Assembly (NCBI GenBank): GCA_937884755.1
Contig: CAKZYJ010000206.1
Location: 1-32,973 of the forward strand
Direction of reading: 5' to 3'
DNA length: 32,973 nucleotides
Source: an uncultured Flammeovirgaceae bacterium
GTDB taxonomy: Bacteria; Bacteroidota; Bacteroidia; Cytophagales; Cyclobacteriaceae
The notes beneath the pieces are model-generated. The model was not told the origin of the DNA. It saw only the letters and a list, made by a program, of their open reading frames with translations, and made no database searches. This document shows, one piece after another, positions 1 through 18,381 of this stretch (its first letter is position 1; each line of letters begins with the position of its first letter). Both the position numbers and the translations under genes were made by a program.

Positions 1-2670
1 AATCTCAATATACCCTTCATAAATCACCCCAAAGTGCTCATCACGCTCACGTATGCTTAGATTAAAGTTTGCTACCTGACCACTTTTTACCGAACTCAAC
101 TCATTAAACGAAGGTAACATTGACCAATCACCTTCATAATATCGGTAGTTGAGACCACTTGCTTTTACTACCTCAGTAGAATCAGACTCAGGCTCGGATG
201 AAGAGCCAGATAGTGATTCAAAAGCGCCAATATCATAAGCACTATTAGCAGGTCTAGCATTTCCTAAGCAGTCTTCATCAATACCATACTGTCCTACGTC
301 TGTACCAGCATCCAATGCAGGAGAATTTTCAGTAATTTGAAAATTACCTTCTGAAAAGCTTTCGAAGTTGACTACGTTCGGCGAAGAGGCAAAATGGTTA
401 GTAGACTCCGCATAGTCTACCCCATTTAGTACAAATAGATAAGAGCGATCAGTATTACCATAGTCACCTAGTGAACCAGGAGATACGATTAAGTTATTAC
501 AAACTACATTATCAAACCCTTCATCATTGTATAATCTAATTCCATCGCGCCCCGGATTAATGATAGTATTATTGATAAACCGGGCTGAAACGGGTAATGG
601 CGAACGATCATCGCAAAAGATAGCATCCTCACCGGCATCTTTTATCACATTGTTAAAAACATCGACTTCACCAGTTCCAAATACTTGTATTCCAGAACCT
701 GTTCCACCTTCTACCCAATTGTTATATACTTTTCCAGTCGACTCACCACCTACAATAATTCCTGCCTGCTGCGATGATTTGTTTACAGTACCGTAATCTA
801 TTACTCGATTATTGTAAATCTCACAGTCTTTGCTCGCTCGACTTACTTGAATCCCATCCCAACCAGTACTCTCCAGAACATTATTGTAAACTCTGATATG
901 CTCAATATCATGAGGAATAACTTCCTGAGTACTTCCATTACAATTGATGTTAACTTTAAGGCTCGTATGCCCGATATAGAAACCTTCACCCTCAATACCG
1001 TGAATATAAAAATCATGGAAACTCACATTACGCATAGTATAGTTACTCTGCCAAGTAGAAGCGTCACAAGACGGATTAGTCTTCGCTAATACTCCCGCTT
1101 CTACTTTCGTAATCTCTATGTGGTCTAACTCAAAGTCACTGCTTTTGGTCGCAATAGCAAAACCAGAAGCTAGATATTTGATCTGTCCATCAACTTTAAA
1201 ACCATATTTATAGTCAGGATCTCCAGTACCAGTGAATCGGAAATACTGATTATTATTCATGACAATACCATAGTTGGTACTAGAACCGCCAATAAGTACC
1301 TGACCACCACAATTTTTGAATAATATTGGCTGTTCAGCACTACCTCTAAAATTGAATAGATTAAGATAGGGGTAATTTCCACCCTCAATACACACAACAT
1401 CGCCGGGTTGTACCCCTAAGTTTTCTCCATTCACATAAGGCTGAGAAGCAGTGATTGTATGGTCACATCCACAGTCATCAGTGGGTGGTGGTGAAGGAGA
1501 GGGCTCTGTAGCGGGTTCAGGCTCAGAAGTAACTGTTACCACAACTTGATCAGAATCTTCTGCGCCTTCATCATCAGTCACTTTTAAAGAAAAAGTGTAT
1601 GTTCCTTCTGAAAAAGACGTTACTGTTACGGTACTAGAAAGCGGATTAGTTAATGAAGCAGTAGAAGGCCCAGATACTTGTGACCAAGCATAGGAAGCGA
1701 TAGAACCATCTTGATCAAGAGATGCAGTACCATCTAGAGTAACCTCACTATCAGTAGGCAATTCTATATTTACATCATTTCCAGCTTCCGCTATTGGTAA
1801 TTGGTTCTCCGGCTCAGTAACTGGCGTATCCCATACTGTAGCCTCACTACGGCGCTGAAGCAACATCCATTCGTAGATAGTAGGAGCATTATAGGTATAA
1901 TCAGTTTCATAGGCTCTTACCCAAGCTCCACTATGCCCTACACCTGGATAGACTGTAAGCTCTGCCAGCTTGTCAGAAGAACAGTTATTTATTCCGTTGA
2001 CCCAGTCTCTAGAATATCTTATAGTAGTTCTGGTATCGGCATCACCGTGGTGTGCCCATACACTTACTTTCTTCTGAGAGATGTTACATACTTTAGAGCT
2101 ATTGAATGACTGATGTCCACAAATGGGAACCATTGCAGCAATTTTCCCAGCGTATTCAGCTTTGAAACTGGTATAAGCCCAGCATCCGCCGCCGCCCATA
2201 CTCAAGCCAGTCAGATAAATTCGATCGAGATCAACTCGATACGTTTTCTTAATATGCTCAATTACTAAATCTACGTAAAACGCTGGCCAAGAATTATACT
2301 TAGACCATAGTTGCGGCGATATTACGATAAGGGACTCCGTTTTCCCATTAACATTAAATTGCATAGGGTGTCCAGACTCAATACGTTTAGGAGGGCCGTT
2401 TTTCTTTAATCCTTCTAAGGACGCAATGCTATTTCCACGTTCACCCGCTCCATGAAGAAAAATGAGTACTGGATACTTTTTATTATTATCATTATAGTCA
2501 TCTGGTAAGTATTCCAAGTAACCTATTTTACCATAGTTTGGAACGCTAATTTCACGAGCGCTCTGCTGCCCCTGTGCATTCGTTACGATTGTTACTAAAA
2601 ACAATAGGAAGAATCTGCTAAGACTAAGCTGCTTCCTAAGTTTTTCAAATTGATGGTATCTCTTTTTCAT
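1..2670 (-). CDS. Secreted esterase / parallel beta-helix / PA14 protein, 3' end cut by window
   Basis: This reading frame is open for 890 codons from the ATG at 2668-2670 to the window edge, so the C-terminus is missing. The order is: signal peptide (about residues 1-34, hydrophobic core FFLLFLVTIVT); alpha/beta-hydrolase esterase (about 42-272) with HGAGERGN near the oxyanion hole and a likely triad of S157 in GLSMGG, D212 and H246; PKD/K319-like domain (about 289-382); Ser/Pro/Glu linker; right-handed parallel beta-helix (about 400-800) with many short Asn-rich turns; and the beginning of a PA14 domain (from about 822). It is a paralogue of the protein at 7260-10451, but the PKD domain sits before the beta-helix here and after it there. 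A T9SS sorting domain is expected beyond the window but is not seen. The substrate is unknown; polysaccharide de-esterification plus lyase or epimerase activity is an inference. Confidence 0.88.
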   Translation of the reverse strand, partial: MKKRYHQFEKLRKQLSLSRFFLLFLVTIVTNAQGQQSAREISVPNYGKIGYLEYLPDDYNDNNKKYPVLIFLHGAGERGNSIASLEGLKKNGPPKRIESGHPMQFNVNGKTESLIVISPQLWSKYNSWPAFYVDLVIEHIKKTYRVDLDRIYLTGLSMGGGGCWAYTSFKAEYAGKIAAMVPICGHQSFNSSKVCNISQKKVSVWAHHGDADTRTTIRYSRDWVNGINNCSSDKLAELTVYPGVGHSGAWVRAYETDYTYNAPTIYEWMLLQRRSEATVWDTPVTEPENQLPIAEAGNDVNIELPTDSEVTLDGTASLDQDGSIASYAWSQVSGPSTASLTNPLSSTVTVTSFSEGTYTFSLKVTDDEGAEDSDQVVVTVTSEPEPATEPSPSPPPTDDCGCDHTITASQPYVNGENLGVQPGDVVCIEGGNYPYLNLFNFRGSAEQPILFKNCGGQVLIGGSSTNYGIVMNNNQYFRFTGTGDPDYKYGFKVDGQIKYLASGFAIATKSSDFELDHIEITKVEAGVLAKTNPSCDASTWQSNYTMRNVSFHDFYIHGIEGEGFYIGHTSLKVNINCNGSTQEVIPHDIEHIRVYNNVLESTGWDGIQVSRASKDCEIYNNRVIDYGTVNKSSQQAGIIVGGESTGKVYNNWVEGGTGSGIQVFGTGEVDVFNNVIKDAGEDAIFCDDRSPLPVSARFINNTIINPGRDGIRLYNDEGFDNVVCNNLIVSPGSLGDYGNTDRSYLFVLNGVDYAESTNHFASSPNVVNFESFSEGNFQITENSPALDAGTDVGQYGIDEDCLGNARPANSAYDIGAFESLSGSSSEPESDSTEVVKASGLNYRYYEGDWSMLPSFNELSSVKSGQVANFNLSIRERDEHFGVIYEGYIEI
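605..1473 (-). repeat. Beta-helix module, copy 1 of a dispersed duplication
   Basis: This part of the partial gene encodes a beta-helix that aligns almost residue for residue with 8682-9551. DNA similarity is visible too: stretches of 20 or more bases are identical or nearly so, for example around 1080-1103 versus 9167-9190 and around 758-780 versus 8829-8851. Both modules begin at a CGCDHTITASQPYVNGE segment. This points to duplication of a coding module rather than a mobile element, since no transposase or terminal repeats are present. Confidence 0.75.
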
Positions 2671-3085
2671 ATTACAAATTGTTATTCAACTTTACATCTA
2701 CACGATGATTATAAATACAATTTGTATTATTCAATGAATATACCATCCATCAACCTAATACTAACTCATTACCCTTCAGCTAAGAGGCTAGTGTAAGAAA
2801 TAAGCAGTATCATACCTATTTCTACATATTTTTATTAAAATAATTATATAATTATTAGATAAATTAAATTTCTATTCTTTATTGATTTTCTGTAAGTGTT
2901 TGATAGACAAATTTTTATGAAATAAAAAATTTTTTTTAATTGAAATAGTTATATTTTATGACAACAGGATACTTTAGCCACCAGAAAACCATGACAATCT
3001 ACCATTTTCGCATTTTGAAACATGATCAACATAAATATAACTATTACAATATGAGAAAATACGATACTCAAGATAGACCCTATCT
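2671..3085. other. Gene-free AT-rich spacer with a short palindrome
   Basis: These 415 bases separate the secreted esterase gene (reading left) from the end of the phosphatase-family gene. I see no coding potential beyond short shadows. A 15-base inverted repeat (AATACAA-T-TTGTATT, 2714-2728) lies 44 bases upstream of the esterase start codon and could be an operator. No exact TAnnTTTG box was found on the minus strand here. Confidence 0.5.
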
Positions 3086-3086
3086 T
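3070..3086 (-). terminator. Weak hairpin at the stop codon of the phosphatase-family gene
   Basis: Seven-base arms AAGATAG and CTATCTT (plus-strand order 3070-3076 and 3080-3086) flank a three-base loop and touch the TAA stop codon of the gene ending at 3086. The minus-strand transcript has no immediate U-run after it, so termination is only a possibility. Confidence 0.3.
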
Positions 3087-4177
3087 TATTCTTTGCCTGT
3101 AGTAACTTGATAACTACCCCTAATTGGATAATGATCTGAAAAAGAAATATTATGATAAGTTTTGAATTCTTTGACTTTAATGTCTGGATTAACAAACTGA
3201 TGATCAATGCGGAGATAAGGAAAGAATTTTTTTCCAGATAACGTTCCTCCTAAACCTCCCCCAGCCTCCTCAAATGCATTGTTCATTATTTCGTTTAGTT
3301 TTGTATAAGTATAGCTAAGGGGCATTTCGTTGAAATCACCACAAACGATCACTCTGTAGGGACTGCTTCTTATTTCTTCAAGCACTATATTACACTGTTT
3401 TGCCTTGAGTAGAATGTTTTTCTTGATATCAGTCAGTAAGTCAGACAAATTTTTTTGAGAGAAAAGGTTTAAAGAGGCCAAGTGTACATTGATTATTCTG
3501 ATTGTGTCAGTGCCTATTAATAAGTCAGTGCATATCGCTCCATTATATCTATTCTCAGCCAGAAAAATTTCTTTATGATTAATAATTGGAAATCTAGAGA
3601 AGGTAATTATGCCTCGCCGAGTACCATTATTGTGAAGGGGTTTAGCCATGAAGTATGCCTCATACTTACCCTGCTGCTCAAAAAATTTTACATTATCAAA
3701 TATGTTGGAGTTGACATCATCGAAGAACTCCTGTAAGCATATTATATCAGGTGATTGACCTAATATCCAGTTTCGGGTGTTTAAAGCTTGCAGATGGTAT
3801 TCTGGCGAATAGTACTCTTTAGAGAATACCCGCCCTGCCCTAAAAAAGCTAGTGTTGTAGCTCAATACATCTAATGCTGCTTCATTTTGTTGATCTTTAC
3901 TTGCGCCAAATGAAATGACATATACACGCGACAGATAAAATAAACCCATCAGTAAAATAACGACTGATACAAAAGCGTACCAACTCTTTTTATAGACTAA
4001 TAGAGGTACCAGAAAAGTATGGGCTACCACTACAGGAAAAATTAAAAAAGTTAGTAATGCACAAATCCAAAAGGTTTCAGGTGACACTTCAGGGCTTATA
4101 AGTATAATAGAGCTGAAAAGGCCTGAAACAGCTAGTAATATATTTTTCACTACAGAAACACTATTCTTTTTTGACAT
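3086..4177 (-). CDS. Membrane-anchored endonuclease/exonuclease/phosphatase-family protein
   Basis: The N-terminal 90 residues contain about three membrane segments. A complete EEP (DNase I/sphingomyelinase-like) domain follows. Numbered from the ATG at 4177, the family's catalytic and metal-binding positions are all present: N108 in SYNT, E150 in LQE, H232 in NVHL, D281 and N283 in GDFN, D325 in RIDH, and D348/H349 in SDHYP. The fold hydrolyses phosphodiester or phosphomonoester bonds; the substrate (nucleic acid, phospholipid or inositol phosphate) cannot be told. A TTG three codons upstream (4186) could also start the frame, but the ATG is preferred. The start overlaps the end of the upstream membrane glycosyltransferase gene, so the two are probably co-translated. 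The catalytic domain is probably on the outer face of the inner membrane, by analogy with similar membrane-tethered EEP proteins. Confidence 0.88.
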   Translation of the reverse strand: MSKKNSVSVVKNILLAVSGLFSSIILISPEVSPETFWICALLTFLIFPVVVAHTFLVPLLVYKKSWYAFVSVVILLMGLFYLSRVYVISFGASKDQQNEAALDVLSYNTSFFRAGRVFSKEYYSPEYHLQALNTRNWILGQSPDIICLQEFFDDVNSNIFDNVKFFEQQGKYEAYFMAKPLHNNGTRRGIITFSRFPIINHKEIFLAENRYNGAICTDLLIGTDTIRIINVHLASLNLFSQKNLSDLLTDIKKNILLKAKQCNIVLEEIRSSPYRVIVCGDFNEMPLSYTYTKLNEIMNNAFEEAGGGLGGTLSGKKFFPYLRIDHQFVNPDIKVKEFKTYHNISFSDHYPIRGSYQVTTGKE

Positions 4178-5789
4178 AAACTTCAATATTCACGTTAGTA
4201 GGTCTTCTAGGTGCCAAAAATTCATCTGTCTTTTGATAGTTCTGTATTAGTGCGTCCCGAACATTGAACGGATAAAAATTATTTAAGAAAGGGATGTATT
4301 CAAACAGTACTAAATCGTAGTATTGGTCTTCAATTTTTTGTATGATTATCTCTTCTTCACGATCGAACATACTTACCCCTTTATGGTACCAAAGTGGATA
4401 ATTATCGCCAACCTCTAACTTATAGTCCATTGCGTAAGCCAAAGGTGTTAATTCTGACATGTTCAGTACCTTCAGATCACCCTTTTCCTTTACTACACTT
4501 AAATCCAATATTCTGTTAATACCTTCTACAGTAGGTTCGGGCATATATACTCGCTTAAATACTTCAATATCTGAAAACTTCCAGGCTGAGTCATCTATTG
4601 TAGTATCTGTACTAATTACATAGGTGTGGCGAGAAACAACGTTAGGATCTACTTCTTCTGATTGCGGGAATACTCTAGTTAAGACTCGATCAACATATTT
4701 CCAATATACTCCTGACCACCACAACATAACCAAACCTGCCAAGATTACCGTACGACTGGTATGCTGAAAATTTATCGATAAGGGAAGTTTAGATAATATG
4801 TAGACAAAAGCAAAACTATGGAAAAAGATATTGTTGTCAGGGGGTGTATAGCTAGTAACCTGAAAAATGGCAGCTTGTACCAGAATTCCAATCGTAAGCA
4901 GCAAAAATATCATCTCACTTTTATCTCCAAAAAATACCTTTACATTTTTTACATTTACTATTAGAATCACAATGATGACTAGCACATAGAATTTAATCCA
5001 CGATGAATTTGATAAAAACTCGTCTACAACATCGCCTAAAGAGAAGCGAGAATAATGAGGAAACTGCCCATAATTGAACCAATACCCAAAGTCAAAAGGT
5101 AAAAATGGCACTATTACGAGGCAGAAAAACCCAGCAAGAAACGCAATGAAGAAGAGAATGGGCTTAATATTCTTCTGAACGATCGTGTAATAGATGAGTA
5201 AAGCCAAACCTACAACAATAGCTAACCCACCCCCATCTTGCTTAGTAAAAAATGAAAACGTATAGAATAAGCAGCTTACTAACAGAAAGCCTATATTTTT
5301 TTGATCCCTGAGTAAATATTTCAGGAGAAAACTCAAACCAACAAACCCCCAAACAGTAACAGTATGGTTGTACCAAGGCCAAAAATTGAAGAATGAATAT
5401 GATATACAGAATAAAAGAATTGCTATGAGCCGAAGTCCTGGATTAACGTCCATTGTTTTCAAAATGGATCGAAATGTAAATCCAGAAACAATATTAATAA
5501 AAACCTGTGCCTTAACTAATGAAATCAGATAGGGGCCAAATATTTTAAAGAAGATAGCAGGGACTACCCAAAAAACAAAGCCCAGAGGTAATCCAAAGTC
5601 TTTATAAGGAATTTGGCCTTCAGATAAGCGATAAGCTCCTTCCCAGCTCAGAAAAATGTTGACTCGGTACGGAAAACTAAAGAATAAAGGTACAATAGCA
5701 AGTCCAATAATAACTCCTACCTCTAATAGTAGAATTTGCTTGTTAGATAATATGTGTGGAGATGCTTCTATACTACTGGACTTGCTCAT
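4161..5789 (-). CDS. Multi-spanning GT-C-like membrane glycosyltransferase (GT39/ArnT-type)
   Basis: A 542-residue protein with about 10-11 hydrophobic segments in the first 380 residues and a soluble C-terminal domain (about 390-542). The first loop after TM1 carries an acidic residue in SWEGAYRLSEG followed by PYKDFGLPLGF. This resembles GT-C enzymes of the GT39/RgtA-E class, which use polyprenyl-phosphate sugars and work on the periplasmic side. The exact donor and acceptor are unknown. The gene overlaps the following phosphatase-family gene by 17 bases (from its ATG at 4177) and diverges from the plus-strand gene at 5978. A role in adding a side-branch sugar to the exopolysaccharide or a lipid is inferred from context only. 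Confidence 0.75.
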   Translation of the reverse strand: MSKSSSIEASPHILSNKQILLLEVGVIIGLAIVPLFFSFPYRVNIFLSWEGAYRLSEGQIPYKDFGLPLGFVFWVVPAIFFKIFGPYLISLVKAQVFINIVSGFTFRSILKTMDVNPGLRLIAILLFCISYSFFNFWPWYNHTVTVWGFVGLSFLLKYLLRDQKNIGFLLVSCLFYTFSFFTKQDGGGLAIVVGLALLIYYTIVQKNIKPILFFIAFLAGFFCLVIVPFLPFDFGYWFNYGQFPHYSRFSLGDVVDEFLSNSSWIKFYVLVIIVILIVNVKNVKVFFGDKSEMIFLLLTIGILVQAAIFQVTSYTPPDNNIFFHSFAFVYILSKLPLSINFQHTSRTVILAGLVMLWWSGVYWKYVDRVLTRVFPQSEEVDPNVVSRHTYVISTDTTIDDSAWKFSDIEVFKRVYMPEPTVEGINRILDLSVVKEKGDLKVLNMSELTPLAYAMDYKLEVGDNYPLWYHKGVSMFDREEEIIIQKIEDQYYDLVLFEYIPFLNNFYPFNVRDALIQNYQKTDEFLAPRRPTNVNIEVYVKKE

Positions 5790-5902
5790 TACTGTCTAAA
5801 TCTATTTTCTTAGAAATAGTGCAATTTAAATAAAATCTGTAAAAATAAGTATCAATAGCATAACAATCACTGTGATAAAAATATAATATAAAAAAATAGT
5901 TA

Positions 5903-5910
5903 TATATTTG
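5903..5910 (+). promoter_or_regulatory. Candidate Bacteroidota -7 element
   Basis: TATATTTG matches the Bacteroidota TAnnTTTG consensus exactly and lies 67 bases before the ATG at 5978. A matching TTTG at about -33 is not evident, so this is moderate evidence in a very AT-rich region. Confidence 0.4.
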
Positions 5911-5977
5911 CTTGTGATAACAGTTACATACAGCTTTAGCAACATTTTTTCCTCCATTTACCTGGGTCATAGCTAAA

Positions 5978-7210
5978 ATGCAGAAAAAAGTATTGATACA
6001 TACCTTTTGTATTTTATTAACCTCTTACTTCTATAGTCATGGGCAGGCAGTTGGGCTGCAAGATGTTAAGCCAGTCATTATTCCTTCAGCTCCCTCCCCT
6101 ATCATTTCTGATAACGATTCTAAGCACTATTTTCTTAGAAGATTCTTCTCAAGAAATGGTTCATTTGGGGGGTTAGTTGAAAAAGACCAATTTACATTCA
6201 ACGATAGCCTTTTACTTTTTTATGAAGAGACCCCACTATCTTTTCTCAATGTGGAGCAGCAAAATGCATTAATTAGTATTGATAGCTATACAGTTTATTA
6301 TCACAACCGCAACCCTTCTAATAATAAGTTTAAGGGCATTTTTTTCTCTAATGCAGCATCATCAGAAGGGTCTTTACCGCAGAAACTGGTAGTTGACCAG
6401 TTTGATCTAACTGATGTTCATTCATTTCACATGAACCCGACTTCGGATGTATTACTATTTAGCCTTAAACATAAACAAGGACAGGGGCAAGAAGATTTAT
6501 ACGTTTCTACTTTTGAAAATGGACAATGGGCTTCACCTATAAATTTAGGAGAAACCATTAACACTGAGGGGTCTGAAATATCGCCTTTCTTAAGTACTGA
6601 CAAAACTACATTGTATTTCTCTAGTACTGGACACGATAGTCTTGGTAAAGGCGATATATTTATATCTAAACGCTTGTATAACTCTTGGAAGGTATGGTCA
6701 GCTCCTAAAAATCTAGGCACTGCTATTAACTCTCCCAACTATGAAGCTTACTTCAATATCGTAGATGATACTACAGCGTATTTTATTAGTAATAAGTATG
6801 GGCAAGGGCAATTGTGGCAGGCCTATATGGATGTCTCTCCTGTCAACCCTTTTCGAAACCTTCAAGACGAAAGAGAGTATTTGAGCAATCAAGAAATGAC
6901 TGGCCTACTTGGAGTTGCTATTGACTCAACAATCTTATTTTCTCCTAATCAATCAGAACTATCCTCTCAATCAAAAGAACTGCTATGGTTCGTTGCTAAT
7001 AATATCATACGGAAACCTGATATTATGATCAATATCGTCTTTCTCCCTGACGTTTCAACTACCGTATTAAAAGAGAGAATTATCGGAGTAAGCGAATACT
7101 TAAACTTTCTAGGCATCTCCCGAAACCGAATAAGTTCTCATGTATTATCACCAGAAAGCGATAATGTGGAAAATACTGACGCAATCTTTAATTTTTATCT
7201 CAAAAAATAA
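5978..7210 (+). CDS. Secreted PD40 beta-propeller protein with degenerate OmpA-like C-terminus
   Basis: A 410-residue protein with a signal peptide (about 1-23). Residues 150-285 contain PD40/WD40-like blades, visible as ISPFLSTDKTTLYFSS and DIFISKR, then INSPNYEAYFN and YFISNKYGQGQLWQ. Residues 318-410 resemble an OmpA/MotB peptidoglycan-binding domain: FSPNQSELSSQSKELL, then a KERIIGVSEYLNFLGI helix with the conserved Arg (R367). The usual ligand loop is several residues shorter than in OmpA, although D358 is present, so peptidoglycan binding is uncertain. PD40-OmpA proteins are common in Bacteroidota envelopes, and PorE of the T9SS has a related layout with added TPRs that are absent here. 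It is the only plus-strand gene in the left third and converges on the esterase gene at 7260. Its job is unknown; an envelope scaffold role is inference. Confidence 0.8.
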   Translation: MQKKVLIHTFCILLTSYFYSHGQAVGLQDVKPVIIPSAPSPIISDNDSKHYFLRRFFSRNGSFGGLVEKDQFTFNDSLLLFYEETPLSFLNVEQQNALISIDSYTVYYHNRNPSNNKFKGIFFSNAASSEGSLPQKLVVDQFDLTDVHSFHMNPTSDVLLFSLKHKQGQGQEDLYVSTFENGQWASPINLGETINTEGSEISPFLSTDKTTLYFSSTGHDSLGKGDIFISKRLYNSWKVWSAPKNLGTAINSPNYEAYFNIVDDTTAYFISNKYGQGQLWQAYMDVSPVNPFRNLQDEREYLSNQEMTGLLGVAIDSTILFSPNQSELSSQSKELLWFVANNIIRKPDIMINIVFLPDVSTTVLKERIIGVSEYLNFLGISRNRISSHVLSPESDNVENTDAIFNFYLKK

Positions 7211-7233
7211 AAGCTACCGTTCTGGTAGCTTTT
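7209..7233. terminator. Bidirectional intrinsic terminator between convergent genes
   Basis: A perfect 10-base inverted repeat, AAAAGCTACC and GGTAGCTTTT, with a 5-base loop GTTCT. It begins at the stop codon of the PD40/OmpA-like gene and lies 27 bases past the stop of the minus-strand esterase gene. U-rich tails follow in both directions (TTTT on plus, TTTTATTTTTTG on minus). Confidence 0.88.
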
Positions 7234-7259
7234 GAATATGGTATTTAGTACATGTTAGC

Positions 7260-10200
7260 TTATTGTTTAATAATCTTTCTGATATCACGCTTTCCACTCT
7301 CTGTTTCCAATACTATATAATATAACCCTGATCCACTGGCGAACTGGTTCATATCCAATTGAAAACTTTCCGTTTCTCTCACTGCCGTTACTTTATTTTC
7401 GTGAAGCAAAGCACCATTGTTTCCGAATACTTTAAGGGTTACTTTTTCACCTTTCATACCTAAAACAGAAATATTGAGCTTACGAAGAACAGGGTTAGGA
7501 TAAAACAGTATCTCTTCTTCCATCTCTAGATCATCCCTAAAAGCCACTTCTTCATCACTTATACCTTTGCTAGACCATTCCTCACGGGTACTATTATTTC
7601 TATATAGCACATTATTAGGAATCAATCGCTTACTAATATTTGGGCCTTTGTAGCGTACCTCTAGTACTTGACCGCCTCTTCTTTCAAAAAAGCTCACTTT
7701 AATGGCATGCTTTCCTTTACTTAGGTATTTGCTACCCGAGCGTTCCCTCTTGCCATGAAGCCCGTTATTATCCACTACCTTTGAGCCGTTAATATGCAGT
7801 AGACTCCCATCATCGGATGAGGTGTAAAACGTATACGTACCCGAGGTAGCAATATCAATATACCCCGTGAACTCAAAAGCAAATTCTTCATCCCGTGAGC
7901 GAGGGGCTAATTTAAAGTTAGATACTGTCCCACTTTTTTTAGGGTTTAGGCTACTAAAATTCGGTACCGATGACCAGTTCCCTTCATAGTATTTATAGTT
8001 TAGACCGTTTCCCCCAGAGGATGTAGACTTATTGACTGTAACTTTAACATCATCAGCTTTAGACGCCCCTTTATTATCTTTTACAGTGATTGAGAACACA
8101 TAAATACCTTCAACGAGATTAGATGCTGTTAGCTCTTTAGTAGCGGCGTTGGAAAGCGATGCCGAAGGTCCACTCTTTTTAGACCACTGATAAGAAGCTA
8201 TGCTCCCATCTGGATCGAAAGCACTAGCCGTTAACTTAACACTATTTGTGGGAAGAGCAATAGTCTTGTCTGAACCTGCATTTACTGTAGGAGGTTGATT
8301 AGTGACACTACCTGCATACTCGCTGGCTCCAACATCATATTTACCGCCTGATGGACGGCTGTTGCCATAATAACCATCATTTACTCCATAAGAACTAGCA
8401 TCAGCCCCCGTATTCACTACAGGTGAAGAGCTAGTCAACTTATATTCTTCTCCCGAGGGATTGGTGAATTTCACTTTATTTATATCACTCGTCTTGTAGT
8501 TATTTGACTCAGTGAGTTTAACATTACCATTTAGCTTCACAATATATTTACCATTACCACTCACAATAAGGTTGTTTCTTGCTACATTCCCAGAAGTAAC
8601 GTCACTGTACATCCTGATCCCCGCGTCGCGGGCTTTTATTATAGTATTGTTAACAAATCGTACCTTCATAGCTACAGGCGACCGATCATCACAAAAAATA
8701 GCGTCTTCGCCGGCATCTTTAATGATATTATTGTAAATTGTGATGGTTCCCGTACCAAAAATCTGGATACCTGATCCCGTACCTTTTTTCACCCAATTAT
8801 TATAGACCCTTCCCGTTGTATTTCCTCCCACAATAATTCCTGCCTGCTGCGAAGACTTATTGGCAGTCCCATAATTGTAAATACGGTTATTATAAATCCT
8901 ACAATCTTTGGAGGCCTGAGCTACTTGAATCCCATCCCAACCAGCATTTTCTATACGATTGTTATACACCCCTATCCCCTCTATCCGATGAGGCTCCACT
9001 TGTTTGGTTGACCCATTGCAATTAATTGTGACTTTAAGACTAGTGTGTCCAATGTAAAAACCTTCACCCTTAATGCCATGAATATAAAAATCATGAAACT
9101 TTACATTACGCATGGTATAATTACCTTTCCAGGTAGAGGCATCACAAGACGGATTGGTCTTCGCTAATACTCCCGCTTCTACCTTAGTTATATCTAAATG
9201 ATCAATCTCGAAATTGCTACTCTTACCAGCAATAGCAAAGCCCGAACCTAGATACTTACTTCCACCGTCTACTTTAAATCCGTATTTTGTACCACTATGC
9301 CCGGTGCCTGTAAAGCGTATATGATGATTGTTATTCATAACAATACCATAATTAGTACTTGAATTGCCAATTCGGACCTGCCCCCCACAGTTCTTTATTG
9401 TAATAGGCGCGCTTGAACTCCCTTTAAAGTTGAACAGATTCAAGTAAGGGTATTGCCCAGATTTCACACAGACTACATCACCAGGCCGCACCCCCAAACT
9501 CTCCCCGTTCACATAGGGTTGAGAAGCTGTAATTGTATGATCGCATCCACAATCACCAGAAGAGCTTGAGCTAGGAGGATCGGCAGGATCATCAGGTGAT
9601 GGAGTTTCTGATATTGAGCTCCCCCGTTTTTGCTGCAAAAGCCATTCATAGATATTTGGGTTGTGATAGTTATGATCTGTTCTGTAAGCCCTTTCCCAAG
9701 TTGCACTATGCCCCAAGTCATTATACGTAGTAAGTTTAGCTAGTCCTGAAGAACACCCATTTATACTATTTACCCAGTCCTTTGAGTATTGAAATGGTGT
9801 TCTGTCGTCGTCCTTGCTGTGAATCGCCCATGTGGCAACTTTGTTACTACAGATATTAGAAACATTAGATGAGTTATATGCTTGATGACCTGCAACAGGA
9901 ACAACGGCCGCAATCTTTTTAGCATATTCAGCTTTGTAGTTAATGTATGTCCAACACCCTCCCCCTCCTAGACTTAATCCAGTTAAGTAAATTCGATCAA
10001 GGTCAACCCGGTACGTTTTTTTAACATGTTCAACAACCAGATCTACGTAGAATGCTGGCCAAGAATTGTAGTCTGCTCTTAGCTGGGGAGAAATCACTAT
10101 AAATGATTGATCTTTTCCTCCAACTCTAAACTTCATGTTATGACCTTCATCAATTAGCTTAGGTGGGCCATTTTCTTTCACCTTATGTAGGTCAGAAGTA

Positions 10201-10451
10201 CCGTTCCCCCGCTCTCCGACACCATGCAGGAATATCATGACAGGGTACTTACTAGTGTTATTACTATAATTGTTGGGAAGATACTCAAGATAGCCAATAT
10301 CTGTGAAGTTAGATACCTTGATTAATTTATTTCTTTGCTGCGCCGAAGATATAGACGTAAGACAAAAAAAGATAATGGTTAAAAATAATACGCTTTTTTG
10401 CTTTTGCTTTGTGATAGAAGATAGTGTAAAAGTAGGTCTCATAGTAAACAT
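7260..10451 (-). CDS. T9SS-exported esterase / parallel beta-helix / PKD / PA14 protein
   Basis: A complete 1063-residue modular exoprotein. Domains: signal peptide (about 1-38); alpha/beta-hydrolase esterase (45-275) with HGVGERGN, nucleophile S160 in GLSLGG, likely D215 and H248; Ser/Pro/Asp linker; right-handed parallel beta-helix (about 300-715) beginning at CGCDHTITAS and rich in YNN turns; PKD/K319-like domain (719-807); PA14 domain (815-950, with SSDDGSLLHING); acidic linker; and a type A T9SS sorting domain (about 983-1063) starting FYPNP and ending in basic residues. The ATG at 10442 is an alternative start. The esterase resembles PHB-depolymerase/feruloyl-esterase-like enzymes, which remove acyl or aryl groups from polymers. 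Beta-helices of this kind include polysaccharide lyases and epimerases. Its place beside the polymerase operon suggests action on the cell's own polysaccharide, but this is inference. Confidence 0.93.
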   Translation of the reverse strand: MFTMRPTFTLSSITKQKQKSVLFLTIIFFCLTSISSAQQRNKLIKVSNFTDIGYLEYLPNNYSNNTSKYPVMIFLHGVGERGNGTSDLHKVKENGPPKLIDEGHNMKFRVGGKDQSFIVISPQLRADYNSWPAFYVDLVVEHVKKTYRVDLDRIYLTGLSLGGGGCWTYINYKAEYAKKIAAVVPVAGHQAYNSSNVSNICSNKVATWAIHSKDDDRTPFQYSKDWVNSINGCSSGLAKLTTYNDLGHSATWERAYRTDHNYHNPNIYEWLLQQKRGSSISETPSPDDPADPPSSSSSGDCGCDHTITASQPYVNGESLGVRPGDVVCVKSGQYPYLNLFNFKGSSSAPITIKNCGGQVRIGNSSTNYGIVMNNNHHIRFTGTGHSGTKYGFKVDGGSKYLGSGFAIAGKSSNFEIDHLDITKVEAGVLAKTNPSCDASTWKGNYTMRNVKFHDFYIHGIKGEGFYIGHTSLKVTINCNGSTKQVEPHRIEGIGVYNNRIENAGWDGIQVAQASKDCRIYNNRIYNYGTANKSSQQAGIIVGGNTTGRVYNNWVKKGTGSGIQIFGTGTITIYNNIIKDAGEDAIFCDDRSPVAMKVRFVNNTIIKARDAGIRMYSDVTSGNVARNNLIVSGNGKYIVKLNGNVKLTESNNYKTSDINKVKFTNPSGEEYKLTSSSPVVNTGADASSYGVNDGYYGNSRPSGGKYDVGASEYAGSVTNQPPTVNAGSDKTIALPTNSVKLTASAFDPDGSIASYQWSKKSGPSASLSNAATKELTASNLVEGIYVFSITVKDNKGASKADDVKVTVNKSTSSGGNGLNYKYYEGNWSSVPNFSSLNPKKSGTVSNFKLAPRSRDEEFAFEFTGYIDIATSGTYTFYTSSDDGSLLHINGSKVVDNNGLHGKRERSGSKYLSKGKHAIKVSFFERRGGQVLEVRYKGPNISKRLIPNNVLYRNNSTREEWSSKGISDEEVAFRDDLEMEEEILFYPNPVLRKLNISVLGMKGEKVTLKVFGNNGALLHENKVTAVRETESFQLDMNQFASGSGLYYIVLETESGKRDIRKIIKQ
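8682..9551 (-). repeat. Beta-helix module, copy 2 of a dispersed duplication
   Basis: This segment matches 605-1473 at protein level over its whole length and at DNA level in many patches. The esterase modules (about 9627-10319 here versus 1855-2547 in the partial gene) also align, but the PKD module does not lie at the same place. The duplication therefore predates or accompanied a domain rearrangement. Confidence 0.75.
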
Positions 10452-10796: not shown

Positions 10797-12281
10797 TTAC
10801 TTGGTCAATTTGTCAAACTTTTGTAGGCATACCACTATAGCCAGAGCCGGATAAAAAATTAAAGATCCTGGCAGTTGCCCGATAGCCACTTGAGCGTATT
10901 GAGCAATAATTACCGAGTAAAACATAGTGATAAATCCGATATAATACGTCCTTACCTTTCTGTTACGGCTCCGATAGTATCCAGCTATACTAACCCGCAA
11001 AATAATAAAATATAGGATACATGTAAGAATCAGTCCAATCCATCCAGTTTCCAGAGCAGTTCTAAGATAACCACTATCGGGTGGGAATCCTGCTAATGGA
11101 TGATCAGGGTTGTATTTTAGCCCTGTTACCCCACTGGTAGCCAACCCACCTCCGATCGGATGATCATATATATAAGGTTGTATACTTGCTCTATTAATAT
11201 CTCTGACGTTTAAGGAAGCATCTGACGAAAACTCAAACGTCGACCTTATCCTATTAATTGTCGAATTTCCATAAATTGGACCAAAGATAATTATAACAAA
11301 TACAGCCAGAAAGACTGTAGTAAGAATCATAGTATTTCTGTGGGTAATGGTCATAATTACAAAGATGGCGAAACCCGCTGGCAACATGGCATATGCTGTA
11401 CGAGTTCCTGAGTATGCCATTCCCAGAAACATAATAATACTAGCGACAATCAGTATAATTCTATTCTTTAACGAGACTGGACCAGTAGCTAATACCAAAG
11501 CAAATAGACCACTAATTGCCATAAGAATACCAAAGGCAGTAGGATCTGATAAAAATGAAAACTTCCGGAAACGCCCTTCTATAAAGTAAAGTCCAAAACG
11601 TAAATCATCTTGACGCACCCAATTCTCCTCAAATGGTAATAACCCAAACCATTCCTGATAGCAGCCGTACAATCCAGCCAAGAATGCTAGCCCTATCCAT
11701 ATAATGACAAATCGCTTAAGAAAACGTATGTTAAAAACATACAACACCACAAAATATGCCATGATAAAACCCAAAAGCTTTCTCATAATATGCAACCAAC
11801 CATCTAGTGAATGCATTTCAGGATTAAAAGCTTGAATGATCATATAAGCTACGTAGATCAGGTAGATTATAGTGACTGGGTTATTAGTATACTGCCACTT
11901 TCGTACGTTCTCCGTTGACTTTTTAAAGAAGATGCCTAAAAAGGTAACAAACAGTAATACTTCTACAACCGCACCTAAAGGAATTTCCTCACCAAAATAA
12001 CGTTTAATGATAAATATGAAAAATGATGAGAATAAGGTGAATAAAAATCCGAATTCGGCATTGAAGAGGCAAACTACAGCTACTACTCCGCCGACGATTA
12101 CCATCGTGAGGATCATTGCTAACGTTGCACCAATCTTTGAAAATAAAAAGGCAAGTACAACTGCACTCAGAAATAAGAAGGCATATCCAAGTGGGTTATT
12201 CAGCTTTTCTTCCAGAATTTTTTCGGATAGCCAGAGTACCAGACGGTCTATGTATCTCTGTTTTCTTTCTACTTTTTCCAT
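10797..12281 (-). CDS. O-antigen ligase/polymerase family protein (Wzy-type)
   Basis: A 494-residue integral membrane protein with roughly 11-12 hydrophobic segments. Between about residues 345 and 420 lies the large periplasmic loop typical of the O-antigen ligase/polymerase family. It contains an Arg-rich start (STINRIRSTFEF), then YIYDHPIGGGLATSGVTG and a GYLRTALETGWIGL segment matching the family's HPIxGxG...ETGxxG pattern. In a locus with a flippase and a phosphoglycosyl transferase, the likely role is polymerising lipid-linked repeat units at the periplasmic face. WaaL-type ligase function cannot be excluded by sequence. It is last in the minus operon starting at 14959 and follows the 35-residue membrane ORF by 22 bases. 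Confidence 0.88.
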   Translation of the reverse strand: MEKVERKQRYIDRLVLWLSEKILEEKLNNPLGYAFLFLSAVVLAFLFSKIGATLAMILTMVIVGGVVAVVCLFNAEFGFLFTLFSSFFIFIIKRYFGEEIPLGAVVEVLLFVTFLGIFFKKSTENVRKWQYTNNPVTIIYLIYVAYMIIQAFNPEMHSLDGWLHIMRKLLGFIMAYFVVLYVFNIRFLKRFVIIWIGLAFLAGLYGCYQEWFGLLPFEENWVRQDDLRFGLYFIEGRFRKFSFLSDPTAFGILMAISGLFALVLATGPVSLKNRIILIVASIIMFLGMAYSGTRTAYAMLPAGFAIFVIMTITHRNTMILTTVFLAVFVIIIFGPIYGNSTINRIRSTFEFSSDASLNVRDINRASIQPYIYDHPIGGGLATSGVTGLKYNPDHPLAGFPPDSGYLRTALETGWIGLILTCILYFIILRVSIAGYYRSRNRKVRTYYIGFITMFYSVIIAQYAQVAIGQLPGSLIFYPALAIVVCLQKFDKLTK

Positions 12282-13624: not shown

Positions 13625-14959
13625 CTAAAGAATTCTTTTACTTCTAATTATTCTATATATATCTTTATAAGACACAAAAATATCCATAAATATTTTTAGC
13701 GCATTAACTCCTAGTTTTTTGTATAATACCGTCTGACTAATTAAGTAGCTTACTAAATAGGTAAACAATGTACCGTAAGCGGCTCCTAGTAACCCAAAGA
13801 GCTTGATAAATACGTAGTTAGCAATAACGTTTGTGACTGCTAATGTAAAGATTACTTTAAAGTTAATATTTGGGTAGCCAGAAGCGTCCATCAGGGTTCC
13901 AAACTGCTTCAAAAAAGGCAGAAACAGACCGTAGAGGATAGTAACTTGCAGAATCCCTGCAGCTTCCACATACCCTGATCCGGCTATAATATGCAATATA
14001 GACTCAGGAAATAATAAAATGATAATGCTAGCCGGTAGTAAAAGTGCCATAATGATACCAACAGATCTTTCATAAAGGTATTTTCCTGAACTCTTATCCT
14101 CATTTATCATTTTCACACTTTTAGGAAAGATGACTTCAGCTGCTACTGTTGATGGAATATCAAGAAGGTTAGTAATTCGAATAGACACATTGTAAAGTGC
14201 GACTGCAGCGGTAGAAATATAGGAGGCAATCATAATTTGATCTGTACTTCTAAATATTAAACTACTAATGTTAGTAGCTAGCACAAACTTTCCGTAACCC
14301 CATAGTTTCTTTACCCATAATACTGAGTAAGTAATTTTCTTCGCTAGAAACTTCCTAGCGTGAGCATATCCCACAACAGATCCAAAGCCTATTCCTACCG
14401 CCTGTAAAAGCACTAGATAATGAAGCAATGTATAGCCATCAAACCAAAAAGTTAAAATTACAACTGAAGCAAAAAAAAACCCTTGACGAACTAAATAACT
14501 CGCTAGGATGCCTGAAAATGAAGAGTTTGCCTGTTGTATGTATTCAAAATGAGAGAAAGGAATCAATATTATTAGCGCAATAATATAATAGCAGAGCATT
14601 GTAGCTAGAGATGGAATATTCCATAGTTCTCCTAAAAAATCAGCACTTAAAAAAATTATAAACCCTGCTAATAAAGAAAAAAGACTATTAATAGATAAGG
14701 AGGCTGTTTCAATTTTACTATGTTCAGACTGGGGTTCTGAATTAATATATTTGATCAATGCGTTTTTAACCAGTCCAGCCTTACTGGTCTCGAGAATTGT
14801 GATAATTGTAAAGAATAAAGACCAAGTCCCCATTTCCTCTTTGGTAAGCACTCTTACTAACAAGAAGAAGCTACCAAACCCAAAAATCACAATACTTACC
14901 TTTTGCAATAGAGAGGCTATTCCTGAACGTACATAATATGAGGACTCTTTAAATTTCAA
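13625..14959 (-). CDS. Wzx-type polysaccharide flippase (MOP superfamily)
   Basis: A 444-residue membrane protein with about 12 hydrophobic segments, and an N-terminus (SGIASLLQKVSIVIFGFGSFFLLVRVLTKEEMGTWSL) with the look of the polysaccharide-biosynthesis/MurJ-MATE class. It would move undecaprenyl-linked repeat units across the inner membrane. The frame begins with a TTG at 14957-14959; the next in-frame ATG (codon 43) would remove TM1, and upstream only ATA/ATT codons occur before a stop, so the TTG is chosen. It is the first gene of the minus operon flippase-glycosyltransferase-microprotein-polymerase and is divergent from the acyltransferase at 15125. Confidence 0.9.
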   Translation of the reverse strand: MKFKESSYYVRSGIASLLQKVSIVIFGFGSFFLLVRVLTKEEMGTWSLFFTIITILETSKAGLVKNALIKYINSEPQSEHSKIETASLSINSLFSLLAGFIIFLSADFLGELWNIPSLATMLCYYIIALIILIPFSHFEYIQQANSSFSGILASYLVRQGFFFASVVILTFWFDGYTLLHYLVLLQAVGIGFGSVVGYAHARKFLAKKITYSVLWVKKLWGYGKFVLATNISSLIFRSTDQIMIASYISTAAVALYNVSIRITNLLDIPSTVAAEVIFPKSVKMINEDKSSGKYLYERSVGIIMALLLPASIIILLFPESILHIIAGSGYVEAAGILQVTILYGLFLPFLKQFGTLMDASGYPNINFKVIFTLAVTNVIANYVFIKLFGLLGAAYGTLFTYLVSYLISQTVLYKKLGVNALKIFMDIFVSYKDIYRIIRSKRIL

Positions 14960-15124: not shown

Positions 15125-16195
15125 ATGCCAAACAACTCGCTATTCAACAGCAAGTCTATTTTAGAAGGAAAGCGTTTGCCTTGGGTTGACTATGCAAAAG
15201 GCATTGCCATTGTATTGGTAGTTTACCGCCACGTACTTATTGGCTTTACAAGATCAGGTCTGGAAGCAAATAAATACTTAATGCTAGCTAATGAAATGGT
15301 ATTCAGTTTCAGGATGCCGTTATTCTTTATTATTGCAGGAGTCTTTATTGAGAAAAGTCTTGGCAAGAGATCACTAAGCAGCTTCACAAAGTATAAGTTT
15401 GATACAATATTGTATCCTTACCTTATCTGGGCAACGATACAAGTTTCATTACAAGTAGCTTTATCACCGTATATAAATGCCAACCGCGGATTTATTGATT
15501 ATCTCTATATTTTGATTCATCCTAGAGCCATTGACCAATTTTGGTTTCTATACGCTTTGTTCAACGTTAGTGTCGTATATGGTCTTATTCAGCGCCATGC
15601 AAAACTACCTATTTACTGGCACCTCGTTTTAGCATTACTAGCTCATTATCTATCAACTTTTGTACAAGAATATGGCTTGATCCATGACTTATTGTACTAC
15701 TACATTTTTCTACTGCTTGGTGCGTACTCTGCCAACTTCTTTTTAAATAGAGAAAACTACCAAACACTGTCTTCAGGTAAACTTACCCTTCTAATAACAC
15801 CCATATTTATTGGCACCCAATGGTACTGGCTTACTACTCCTGATATTAATTTCATCTTATTTACCGGCATCGCGTTGATTGGATGCTTCTATATCTTATG
15901 CCTGTCTTTTATTTTGCAAAAAAATAGCTTGCTAAGATTTATTAGAATTATAGGTTATCACTCGCTTTACATCTACCTACTTCACGTATTAGTTACCTCA
16001 GCTGTACGAGTAATTGCTATAAAATTGGGGTTTACTTACGTTCCAGTATTATTGGTTATCAACATTTTCTTGGGAACCTGTATACCAATCATGTTTTACA
16101 ATATTGCAAAAAGAAGCTACCTGAGTCTATTATTTGAACCGAAAAAAGCGAAAGTGAATAAAAGTACTCTTGGAAGGAAAAGCACTTCTTTCTAG
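15125..16195 (+). CDS. Acyltransferase-3 family membrane protein (first)
   Basis: A 356-residue protein with about 10 membrane segments. The first carries the family signature LPWVDYAKGIAIVLVVYRH with the likely catalytic His at position 36. Acyltransferase-3 proteins move acetyl, succinyl or similar groups onto sugars of surface polysaccharides, usually from the cytoplasm to the periplasm. The gene is transcribed alone, divergent from the flippase operon, and converges on the co-polymerase gene with both stop codons overlapping at 16192-16195. Acetylation of the exopolysaccharide is likely from context, but the acyl group is unknown. Confidence 0.88.
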   Translation: MPNNSLFNSKSILEGKRLPWVDYAKGIAIVLVVYRHVLIGFTRSGLEANKYLMLANEMVFSFRMPLFFIIAGVFIEKSLGKRSLSSFTKYKFDTILYPYLIWATIQVSLQVALSPYINANRGFIDYLYILIHPRAIDQFWFLYALFNVSVVYGLIQRHAKLPIYWHLVLALLAHYLSTFVQEYGLIHDLLYYYIFLLLGAYSANFFLNRENYQTLSSGKLTLLITPIFIGTQWYWLTTPDINFILFTGIALIGCFYILCLSFILQKNSLLRFIRIIGYHSLYIYLLHVLVTSAVRVIAIKLGFTYVPVLLVINIFLGTCIPIMFYNIAKRSYLSLLFEPKKAKVNKSTLGRKSTSF

Positions 16196-18381
16196 TTAAG
16201 ATTCTCTCTCTTAACTTTGTTTAATATTGACCCTATGAATCGGCTTTCTTGCTTCTCTAAAAAGGCGATTGACTCTTTATCCAAAGGCTTGATCACACTA
16301 TCTGCTGCAAAAACGAGTATAATCCCATCCACATAGCGAGCTAATTCCTTCGAGTCAGTGTATTGGTTTAGAGCAGCTCCCTCCAAGAAAACATAATCAT
16401 ACTGACCACCAACCTCCTTAAGTTGGGAGATAAACTTACCTTCCGGAAATATCTCAGAAGGCGAGTAGTCACCCCGACTGCAACCCAAAATATCTACATT
16501 AGGTATACGACTTGCTCTAATCATTTTTGTGATTCCAACTAAATTACTTTCAATGCTGTGTGCACCTAGCGGTAACAGCCCCTCTATCTCAAGAGTTAGC
16601 GTATTATTGCTAAAGTTGGTATCAATAATTAAAACTCTTTTTTTGCCCAAACTGAGTGTTCTAGCGAGTGCTTTAACTACTGTAGTTTTACCTGCTCCTG
16701 GCGAGGTACTTGTAAATAAAATGACTTTCTTACTACTACTCTCAATTTCAAACCTCAGTTTTCTGATTAAATCTCTGAAAATATCTTTGTTTTCACTTTT
16801 TCTAGATTTATTACTAAAAATATTTTCTGAAGCAACCTCCTTCTGATTCAGCTTATTAATGACACCTATAATATCTGAGTTTAACTGTTTTCTGAAATTA
16901 GCAGATGTTTTTATTGAAACATCAACGTACTCTAGAAAGATAATTATCATCACACACAAGATGAAGCTGGTTACCCCGGAGAGCGCAGTGGTGATTAATC
17001 TTTTAGAAGATTCAGGTTCTACTGCAGGTTGTCCTTCTAGCGTTTGTCTGATATTATGATTTGATGCCAGATTGACATTAATTGCAGTGTTGTACTTTTC
17101 TTGAGCTCCCAAATATTCCTGACTAGCTAAGGCAAGATCACGCTCCAGTGTAGCAATTCTAGCTTCTTTAGAAGCATATGAACCTACACTAGCACGTAGG
17201 TCAGCTACTTTACTTGCCAGGGACCTAACATTATCTTGAGAAATAGCAAGTTCAGTTTCTAGGTCTCTCTTCTTACTTATCAAATCAGGCCTTCCTAACT
17301 GTTCTTCTCCTTCAAACGAAGCTGTACCATTAGCTTCTTCTAACTTTGTATAAAGTTGGTTTCGCAGATTATTAATTCTTTCTAGTAACTGATTATCAGT
17401 GGCTCCACCACTGATATATTCTTTATTTAAAACATTTATTTGCTCCCGAAGTGTTAGGATATCAGTATTCGTACTACTACTTGCTAAGAGTCCACGATTA
17501 CTGGTGGATAGATTACTAAGTCTCTTATTTATATCCTCAATGGATAATGCGAGAGCTTGAGACTCTCTTCGAGCTTCAGATAGAGCACTCTCATAACTTG
17601 CAATTTGTTCTATCTGGCTTGTGCTTTCCGCTTCAACATTAAGAACTCCTTGTGATGACTTAAATGCTCGTAAGGCCTCTTCTTTTTCATTAAGTTCTTG
17701 GCGTTTTTGTTCTACCAGATTAGCAAATGTTTTTACAGCTTCGTTAGATCGTTCGTACCATAATGAGTTATAATAGCGTAAAAACTCTGAGCACAAACTA
17801 TTTACAACAAAAGCTGATAATTCAGGATTATCTGAAAAGAATTGAATTTCAATATAATCAGTTCTTTTTACCCTATTGACAAACAGCAGCTCACTTAGCG
17901 ATACATAATCATATTGATAAAGCTTAAGCAGTTCTAATATTTTTTTCTCATCGGCATCAAAGGAGGTTAGCAGTTGCATTGAATCCAGATGGTTTTGCAG
18001 TACCACCTTTACTTTATCAAGGTCAAGATTACGAAGGAGAGCTGCTTTTTTATCTTGATCTTCTATTCTCCGAAAGGGAGGGCGATCGGTCTCGAGGTCA
18101 TGAATCATTAATTTGTAAGAGAGCAATCCTACTACCTTAGTCGAGATCAGTGTCTCAAGAACATTATTAAACTTAATATCAGCTTCATATACATTAAAAC
18201 GTTCTTCAGTCAATTTTACTTGCTCATTCACAGTAAAGCCTGTTGATAGCTGAGCACTTGATTTATATAATCTTATAAAATCTCGTGTAAAGATTAAAGC
18301 ACATAAAATAGCTACAATAGGAACTCCAATAAGTATCCACTTCCGTCTTAGCAAAGCTCTAATGAAATATACTATATCCAT
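16192..18381 (-). CDS. Wzz/Wzc-like polysaccharide co-polymerase with degenerate kinase domain
   Basis: A 729-residue protein. A Wzz domain has TM1 at about 15-31, a long periplasmic coiled-coil stretch (about 200-440) and TM2 at about 462-484. A cytoplasmic BY-kinase-like P-loop domain (about 535-729) follows. Walker A is intact (SPGAGKTT, 560-567) and Walker A' keeps D587, but the next Asp is N589. The Walker B region reads DYVFLEGAAL, with Glu (E667) replacing the usual Asp and AA replacing PP. The C-terminus ends KVKRENLN with no tyrosine cluster. The protein should control chain length and coordinate export; autophosphorylation on a tyrosine tail looks unlikely. Upstream, 36 bases before the start, lies a strong hairpin (18417-18458). 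Confidence 0.9.
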   Translation of the reverse strand: MDIVYFIRALLRRKWILIGVPIVAILCALIFTRDFIRLYKSSAQLSTGFTVNEQVKLTEERFNVYEADIKFNNVLETLISTKVVGLLSYKLMIHDLETDRPPFRRIEDQDKKAALLRNLDLDKVKVVLQNHLDSMQLLTSFDADEKKILELLKLYQYDYVSLSELLFVNRVKRTDYIEIQFFSDNPELSAFVVNSLCSEFLRYYNSLWYERSNEAVKTFANLVEQKRQELNEKEEALRAFKSSQGVLNVEAESTSQIEQIASYESALSEARRESQALALSIEDINKRLSNLSTSNRGLLASSSTNTDILTLREQINVLNKEYISGGATDNQLLERINNLRNQLYTKLEEANGTASFEGEEQLGRPDLISKKRDLETELAISQDNVRSLASKVADLRASVGSYASKEARIATLERDLALASQEYLGAQEKYNTAINVNLASNHNIRQTLEGQPAVEPESSKRLITTALSGVTSFILCVMIIIFLEYVDVSIKTSANFRKQLNSDIIGVINKLNQKEVASENIFSNKSRKSENKDIFRDLIRKLRFEIESSSKKVILFTSTSPGAGKTTVVKALARTLSLGKKRVLIIDTNFSNNTLTLEIEGLLPLGAHSIESNLVGITKMIRASRIPNVDILGCSRGDYSPSEIFPEGKFISQLKEVGGQYDYVFLEGAALNQYTDSKELARYVDGIILVFAADSVIKPLDKESIAFLEKQESRFIGSILNKVKRENLN
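16194..16220 (+). terminator. Terminator embedded in overlapping convergent stop codons
   Basis: Perfect 8-base arms AGTTAAGA (16194-16201) and TCTTAACT (16209-16216) with a 7-base loop, followed on the plus strand by TTGTTTAAT. It ends the acyltransferase transcript, and its stem overlaps both stop codons and lies within the last codons of the co-polymerase gene. On the minus strand no U-run follows. Confidence 0.65.

Follow-up and report, generated by a model that had tools for sequence, protein, structure and literature searches.

The window analysed here is a stretch of 32,973 bp (positions 1-32973 of contig C206, CAKZYJ010000206.1) from the 8.35-Mb assembly GCA_937884755.1 of an uncultured Flammeovirgaceae bacterium, in which two paralogous secreted proteins that fuse an esterase to a right-handed beta-helix are encoded within a polysaccharide locus (Table 1). 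These proteins probably act as two-step enzymes that remodel the exopolysaccharide of the cell producing them, with deacylation followed by cleavage or epimerisation of the bared chain by the helix. In some Bacteroidota of soil and water, the fusion is encoded beside polysaccharide genes, which hints at a built-in means of processing their own slime. To our knowledge, little is known about the post-export alteration of own exopolysaccharide in free-living Bacteroidota, and no account of this esterase-helix fusion was found in the literature within the searches made. Present beside the polymerase in most genomes of one genus, the fusion provides a direct handle on such alteration, with one protein, one polymer and two predicted reactions.

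The domain make-up, originally read from the sequence alone, was recovered by Pfam and PDB matches. The esterase, the beta-helix and the PKD domain were detected in both chains and the sorting domain of the type IX secretion system (T9SS) in the complete one (for the esterase of the complete protein, Abhydrolase_2 2.1e-6 and PDB 4q82 1.5e-23; for the incomplete paralogue, Abhydrolase_2 4.9e-5 and PKD 3.2e-25), and chance or misread domains were ruled out by the E-values and the recurrence of the fusion. The PA14 domain, likewise predicted for both proteins, was found in full in the complete one, while the paralogue retains its first ~54 residues at the contig edge, detected by likeness to the complete protein without a Pfam match. 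The domains are arranged as esterase-helix-PKD-PA14-T9SS in the complete protein, as opposed to esterase-PKD-helix-PA14 in the incomplete one; the two helices are 67% identical and have their groove residues in common. Export by the T9SS is indicated by the C-terminal sorting domain of the complete protein and by SprA, the only T9SS part searched, which scored above its cut-off in the genome of the window.

The esterase domain was modelled with a predicted local distance difference test score (pLDDT) of 90.4 and is predicted to adopt the alpha/beta-hydrolase fold. Its closest solved relatives are a Haliangium carboxylesterase (4q82; Z 28.8, root mean square deviation (rmsd) 2.4, 223 residues) and a thermostable esterase (3doh; Z 25.6), whose solved chains are, unlike the window protein, too short to hold a beta-helix. 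Among 48 aligned esterase rows, counting those with letters at the respective position, the catalytic Ser was found in 46/46, the His in 44/45 and the acid as Asp in 39 and Glu in 7 of 46, with Ser, Asp and His all kept in the 15 fusion rows. Both window paralogues carry the Ser and the His, with Asp at the aligned position. Judged from this alignment, a Ser-Asp/Glu-His catalytic set is present, and together with the fold it points to a domain that removes acyl groups.

The original prediction had asked whether this architecture recurs beside Wzx/Wzy genes, and it was found to do so in further lineages as well as on a plasmid. In a scan of GTDB genomes, 75 named helix loci were obtained, which include several pairs of near-copies and are not all independent. 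Esterase and helix share one frame in nine of them, comprising eight from Chitinophaga or [Flexibacter] (L064-L069, L075, L076) and a metagenome-assembled genome (MAG; L117) with two copies. The latter, titled Thalassovita sp., contains a Bacteroidota-type T9SS and a polysaccharide locus and is probably a mis-labelled bin. Beyond the genus of the window, the fusion thus occurs in Chitinophaga, in this MAG and on the 53.6-kb plasmid CP139022.1 of Flammeovirgaceae SG7u.111 (L217), where it accompanies a complete exopolysaccharide locus encoding a sugar transferase, glycosyltransferases, a flippase, an O-antigen ligase family protein, an MBOAT protein and two acyltransferases, for a total of three acyltransferases.

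Wzy was detected in 78 and the helix in 75 of the 79 Chitinophaga genomes (one without Wzy at the limit used). Esterase and helix lie in one open frame in at least 70 of the 79, and in 62 of those 70 the fusion is located no more than 35 kb from Wzy. Since 70 kb corresponds to ~1% of such a genome, fewer than one fusion-Wzy neighbour would be expected by chance under random gene placement. The nine genomes not counted as fused include four (G224, G235, G249, G273) with a large helix frame whose esterase may lie beyond the matches listed, and for the second Wzy class (50 genomes, Wzy <40% identity) the fusion was judged from a shared contig and the length of the open frame. The first class comprises 28 genomes, of which 22 were counted, three (G195-G197, corresponding to L064, L066 and L068) were read and agree, and three (G203, G207, G226) were left out. 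The 22 counted Wzy loci contain an acyltransferase-3 gene in 22, a lone secreted esterase in 21 and the fusion in 17 cases. The usual gene order is fusion, lone esterase, short OEP, Wzy, glycosyltransferase, Wzx, acyltransferase-3 and Wzz, sometimes with a second acyltransferase-3. Next to Wzz, most Chitinophaga polysaccharide loci that were read (L218, L222-L241) encode a T9SS protein of ~1000-1080 aa.

An acyltransferase gene was present in every fusion-bearing Wzy locus read, i.e. in the window, L042, L046/L047, L198/L217, L117 with L219, and Chitinophaga (L064-L069, L076 and the 17 counted loci, with some genomes entering twice). For Cytophagales, this amounts to 5/5 fusion-bearing loci compared with 23/65 others (p 0.008), a value weakened by the make-up of the five, to which the window contributes both itself and its second copy, another locus comes from its genus, and L219 was included by hand. 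In the Chitinophaga loci read, acyltransferase and esterase are both nearly universal, which fits a cycle of acyl addition and removal but permits no test of it. Fusions differ in the number and place of their PKD domains, with twelve behind the helix in L223. In the helix tree they are found at three places, and a single clade for all 15 fused rows was not rejected (approximately unbiased test, p 0.284, quick tree), so that no number of fusion origins is claimed.

The helix was modelled from an alignment of 69 sequences with a pLDDT of 95.5 and a predicted template modelling score of 0.94. Its realigned structure matches are led by the pectate lyase Pel9A (Z 29.9), the epimerase AlgE4 (2pyg, 29.6) and RbmB (9ozd, 29.3), with PL6 lyases further down (7o84, 27.2); differences in Z of less than 1 were taken as ties, and fold likeness alone indicates no function. 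The original prediction would have been undermined by a helix without conserved groove residues. Here, a set of polar columns was found to be almost invariant (domain numbering, 69 sequences): K135, Y170, Q213 and D/E210 in 69, E167, H157 and H162 in 67 and Q239 in 66, followed by E119, E124, C140 and C182 in 65 each. Both window proteins retain these columns, except for an Asp at the E124 position of the complete one, in which the groove positions correspond to K431 (135), H453 (157), H458 (162), E463 (167), Y466 (170), D506 (210), Q509 (213) and Q535 (239). Because K135, E167/Y170, D210/Q213 and Q239 occupy similar strand positions in successive turns of the model, according to its strand table, they should stack along one face.

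In the proposed mechanism, the acyltransferases of the locus, to judge by their family, would add acyl groups to the polymer during synthesis, and the fusion protein would be exported by the T9SS. Outside the cell, the esterase would strip the acyl groups, and the beta-helix on the same chain could then process the exposed segment, by either beta-elimination or C5-epimerisation or, with lower probability, by hydrolysis, with the cell's own polymer as the presumptive substrate and the helix as the presumptive catalyst. The PKD and PA14 domains may serve as spacers, carbohydrate-binding or surface-holding parts; the variable number of PKD domains and the variable domain order make it likely that the two enzymes are tethered loosely to one polymer rather than locked together. 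By this means, the cell would adjust how viscous its matrix is, how it gels or how it is released. If so, the protein and the acyltransferases would together sustain a cycle of acylation, deacylation and processing at the cell surface.

The best fit for this mechanism is, by analogy, the logic of PsmE, a mannuronan C5-epimerase of P. syringae, assembled from other parts and joined with the precedent of RbmB in one T9SS-exported chain. In the excerpt consulted (PMC4444821), acetylation is described to block alginate epimerases and many alginate lyases, and PsmE, in which esterase and processing module share one secreted chain, must clear acetyl groups from its own polymer with its esterase/deacetylase module before epimerisation. 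According to the same excerpt, that module is a predicted SGNH esterase, unlike the alpha/beta-hydrolase of the window protein, which also differs in its T9SS export and in a helix family without an AlgE/AlgG-type motif. RbmB resembles the window helix in fold (rmsd 3.0, 311 aligned residues, 15% identity), and the excerpt on this lyase (PMC11637428) states that it cuts the Vibrio polysaccharide of its own species, a partly O-acetylated product of a Wzx/Wzy-like system; a fused esterase, as present in the window protein, is not mentioned in that excerpt. In Klebsiella, an acetyltransferase and an esterase (WcsU and KpACE) are balanced on the cell's own capsule in a manner similar to the proposed cycle, and the abstract (PMC11556721) does not describe a fusion to a beta-helix like the one found here. 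If the mechanism holds, the principle used by PsmE, in which deacetylation precedes modification, evolved anew from different parts, and the helix could represent a new enzyme family for the tailoring of bacterial gums. More tentatively, the fusion might stand for a widespread and so far unnamed enzyme type of Bacteroidota, exported by the T9SS and regularly included in Wzx/Wzy loci, even on a plasmid, in which deacylation is coupled to a reaction catalysed by a novel groove outside the described lyase, epimerase and hydrolase families.

Several results weigh against such a remodelling enzyme, some of them by favouring other explanations. Lyase or epimerase chemistry normally requires a uronate, and a Pfam scan of 20 window proteins revealed no uronate-making gene. 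The active site of PL6 enzymes consists of Ca-binding acids with Lys and Arg, in the pattern E-x-E-x4-K with an Arg ~21 residues further on, and the epimerase motif reads DPHE in its AlgE version. None of the catalytic patterns tried was recognised in the helix groove: DPH[DE], known as DPHD for the C5-epimerase described in the excerpt of PMC4444821, was found in 0/69 sequences, and E-x-E-x4-K was found anywhere in 2/69, with column 156 mostly I/L/F, in a sequence-pattern test without superposition of active sites. The comparison with PL6 and epimerase sites that had originally been proposed thus upheld a conserved polar groove but revealed neither the AlgE/AlgG motif nor a PL6-like pattern, and plain membership in AlgE/AlgG was rejected, as the fold is shared and the motif absent.

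This mismatch is also what would be expected if the helix were non-enzymatic and bound to the polymer, or else to a metal or a glycan at the surface, while delivering the esterase; the protein would then be a deacylase, or a component of the matrix, equipped with an extensive scaffold for binding. NosD, the beta-helix partner of an ATP-binding cassette transporter, is among the best structure matches (Z 27.7) and gave a weak Pfam match as well, and helix relatives without any esterase exist, some of them lipoprotein-like. Such a role appears rather doubtful given the conservation, in 67-69 of 69 sequences, of K135, H157, H162, E167, Y170, D/E210 and Q213 on consecutive turns, as in catalytic grooves; pure binding faces usually drift in sequence. 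A less likely alternative is a glycosidase akin to the GH136 lacto-N-biosidases, which depend on a partner domain for their activity; the chain would then be deacylated and subsequently hydrolysed. In its favour, GH136 chains occupy the first four Foldseek rows, and of the 50 structural alignments listed, theirs extend furthest (375-383 residues, 19-20% identity, Z 26.9-27.5; LnbX, 381 aligned, Z 27.5). In the excerpt of PMC7335108, the catalytic residues of ErLnb136 are D568 and D575, seven positions apart, whereas the window helix family contains no pair of columns at this distance that are both at least 85% acidic (69 sequences; a spacing test without superposition of active sites).

Digestion of foreign polysaccharide (plant, algal, fungal or from prey), with the position beside polysaccharide genes reflecting genome organisation or shared regulation, is quite unlikely. 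It would account for the feruloyl esterases of gut Bacteroides and the fungal acetyl xylan esterase among the esterase structure matches (Z ~20, below the top three), for a GH5 gene at a distance of ~6 kb from the L119 gene of a double-helix protein, and for two loci that adjoin SusC/SusD in a Pfam search of the neighbours of three loci, namely L070 and the fusion-bearing L075, the latter with a Reg_prop sensor kinase in addition. Against it stand the proximity of most Chitinophaga fusions to Wzy, the plasmid that pairs the fusion with a whole polysaccharide locus, and the genome of L075 itself, which carries another fusion at its Wzy locus (L218).

The remaining points against processing of the cell's own polymer come from gene associations at Cytophagales Wzy loci, of which 69 of 84 matches were read and the 15 lowest-scoring left out. 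Sixty of the 69 stretches were centred on Wzy, the nine others being the window, seven helix-centred fetches and the control L148; several end at contig ends, and L046 and L047 together comprise 40 kb. Since uneven stretches favour rows with a helix, counts were repeated with equal stretches and with Wzy-centred fetches. Acyltransferase genes were found in 9/15 loci with an esterase and 18/54 without (p 0.077; by genus 0.19), in 8/14 compared with 19/55 within 10 kb either side of Wzy (p 0.14), in 5/10 compared with 16/50 of the Wzy-centred fetches (p 0.30) and, with no link, in 6/9 compared with 9/14 loci of the window's type, defined by the additional presence of the 542-aa protein described below or an endonuclease/phosphatase-family gene. 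A strict esterase-acyltransferase rule was therefore dropped as not significant (p 0.08-0.30). In favour of the mechanism, helix and esterase are associated overall (7/14 compared with 8/55, p 0.0086) and within 10 kb either side of Wzy (6/12 compared with 8/57, p 0.011); the association is weaker by genus (p 0.099) and in the Wzy-centred fetches (3/6 compared with 7/54, p 0.052) and absent within the window's locus type (4/9 compared with 5/14). The predicted acyl cycle is thus plausible and in line with the acyltransferase in each fusion-bearing Wzy locus read, but no significant esterase-acyltransferase link was found across Cytophagales.

The distribution of the helix itself also counts against a strict tie to polysaccharide synthesis. 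A marker rule demanding at least two of Wzy, Wzx, Wzz, sugar transferase and OEP in the fetched stretch held for 15/75 named helix loci and 1/20 random stretches, the latter (L148) containing a Wzy locus of its own; inspection by eye adds no fewer than seven further loci from the 75 (L071, L073, L091, L092, L106, L113, L133), which adjoin a sugar transferase with glycosyltransferases. Mucilaginibacter accounts for 25 of the 75 (among L088-L136), with none fitting the rule. The helix was found in 26 and Wzy in 78 of 195 relatives. In support of the mechanism, it lies no more than 35 kb from Wzy in 17 of the 26 helix-bearing Cytophagales genomes; it is absent from the vicinity of this Wzy in the other nine, and 24 of 54 helix matches are near Wzy. 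In two of these nine (G010, G139), the helix adjoins a sugar transferase and polysaccharide genes (L058, L071; G139 was equated with L071 by the distance between helices). The caveat that homologues might occur mostly in unrelated contexts thus applies to the helix family, with its 15/75 marker loci, its Mucilaginibacter members and at least two loci beside SusC/SusD. As the helix alone is often remote from polysaccharide markers, it is a family of wider use, and the tie to polysaccharide loci is a feature of its fused form. The Mucilaginibacter protein of L102 has a start resembling that of a lipoprotein, and several such loci share a neighbourhood without polysaccharide markers. Helix matches were also obtained in MAGs titled Myxococcota (L127, L135), the L127 match not being marked as a helix frame on reading.

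The gene content of the window agrees with the predicted location inside a polysaccharide locus, given the presence of Wzy, Wzx, Wzz/kinase, a sugar transferase and glycosyltransferases, and both of the acyltransferase-3 genes noted earlier were recovered (Table 1). A search against PHROGs returned 0 matches up to an E-value of 0.01.

Table 1. Features of the 32,973-bp window.
Feature	Position	Strand	Evidence
Incomplete paralogue, 890 aa (esterase, PKD, beta-helix, start of PA14), open at contig base 1	1..2670	-	
Beta-helix domain of incomplete paralogue	187..1473	-	Beta_helix 3.6e-10
Complete esterase/beta-helix/PKD/PA14/T9SS protein, 1063 aa	7260..10451	-	
T9SS type A sorting domain, complete protein	7269..7502	-	Por_Secre_tail 1.3e-8
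PA14 domain, complete protein	7614..8009	-	6.4e-18
K319L-like PKD domain, complete protein	8034..8300	-	2.8e-25
Right-handed beta-helix domain, complete protein	8301..9563	-	Beta_helix 4.2e-20
Predicted alpha/beta-hydrolase esterase domain, complete protein (~residues 36-282; S160, D214, H248)	9606..10346	-	
Wzy-type polymerase/O-antigen ligase family	10797..12281	-	domain matches
Wzx-type flippase	13625..14959	-	domain matches
Acyltransferase-3 (Acyl_transf_3)	15125..16195	+	domain match
Wzz/tyrosine autokinase co-polymerase	16192..18381	-	domain matches
Third secreted esterase (esterase, fn3, PA14, T9SS) without beta-helix	18555..22844	-	
Acyltransferase-3	23125..24306	-	nearest NCBIfam model MdoC, score under its cut-off
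Short TolC/OEP-like protein, 241 aa	24339..25064	-	
Glycosyltransferases, methyltransferase, GalE-like epimerase, initiating sugar transferase	25836..31907	-	

The locus is present a second time in this assembly, in collinear order and with 55-87% amino-acid identity, on contigs C204 and C12 (L042-L045); this copy may represent a duplication or a co-assembled relative, and in view of this doubt and a contamination figure of 3.74%, it was not counted as independent evidence. In 65/69 Cytophagales loci, a relative of the TolC/OEP-like protein shares a stretch with Wzy; in the window, the two genes are not adjacent. Positions 4161-5789 encode a many-pass membrane protein of 542 aa, which yielded 0 Pfam matches at an E-value of 0.1 and 0 NCBIfam matches at 0.01. 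On visual inspection, a membrane glycosyltransferase is one possible identity, and a relative was found in 20/69 of the Cytophagales Wzy loci.

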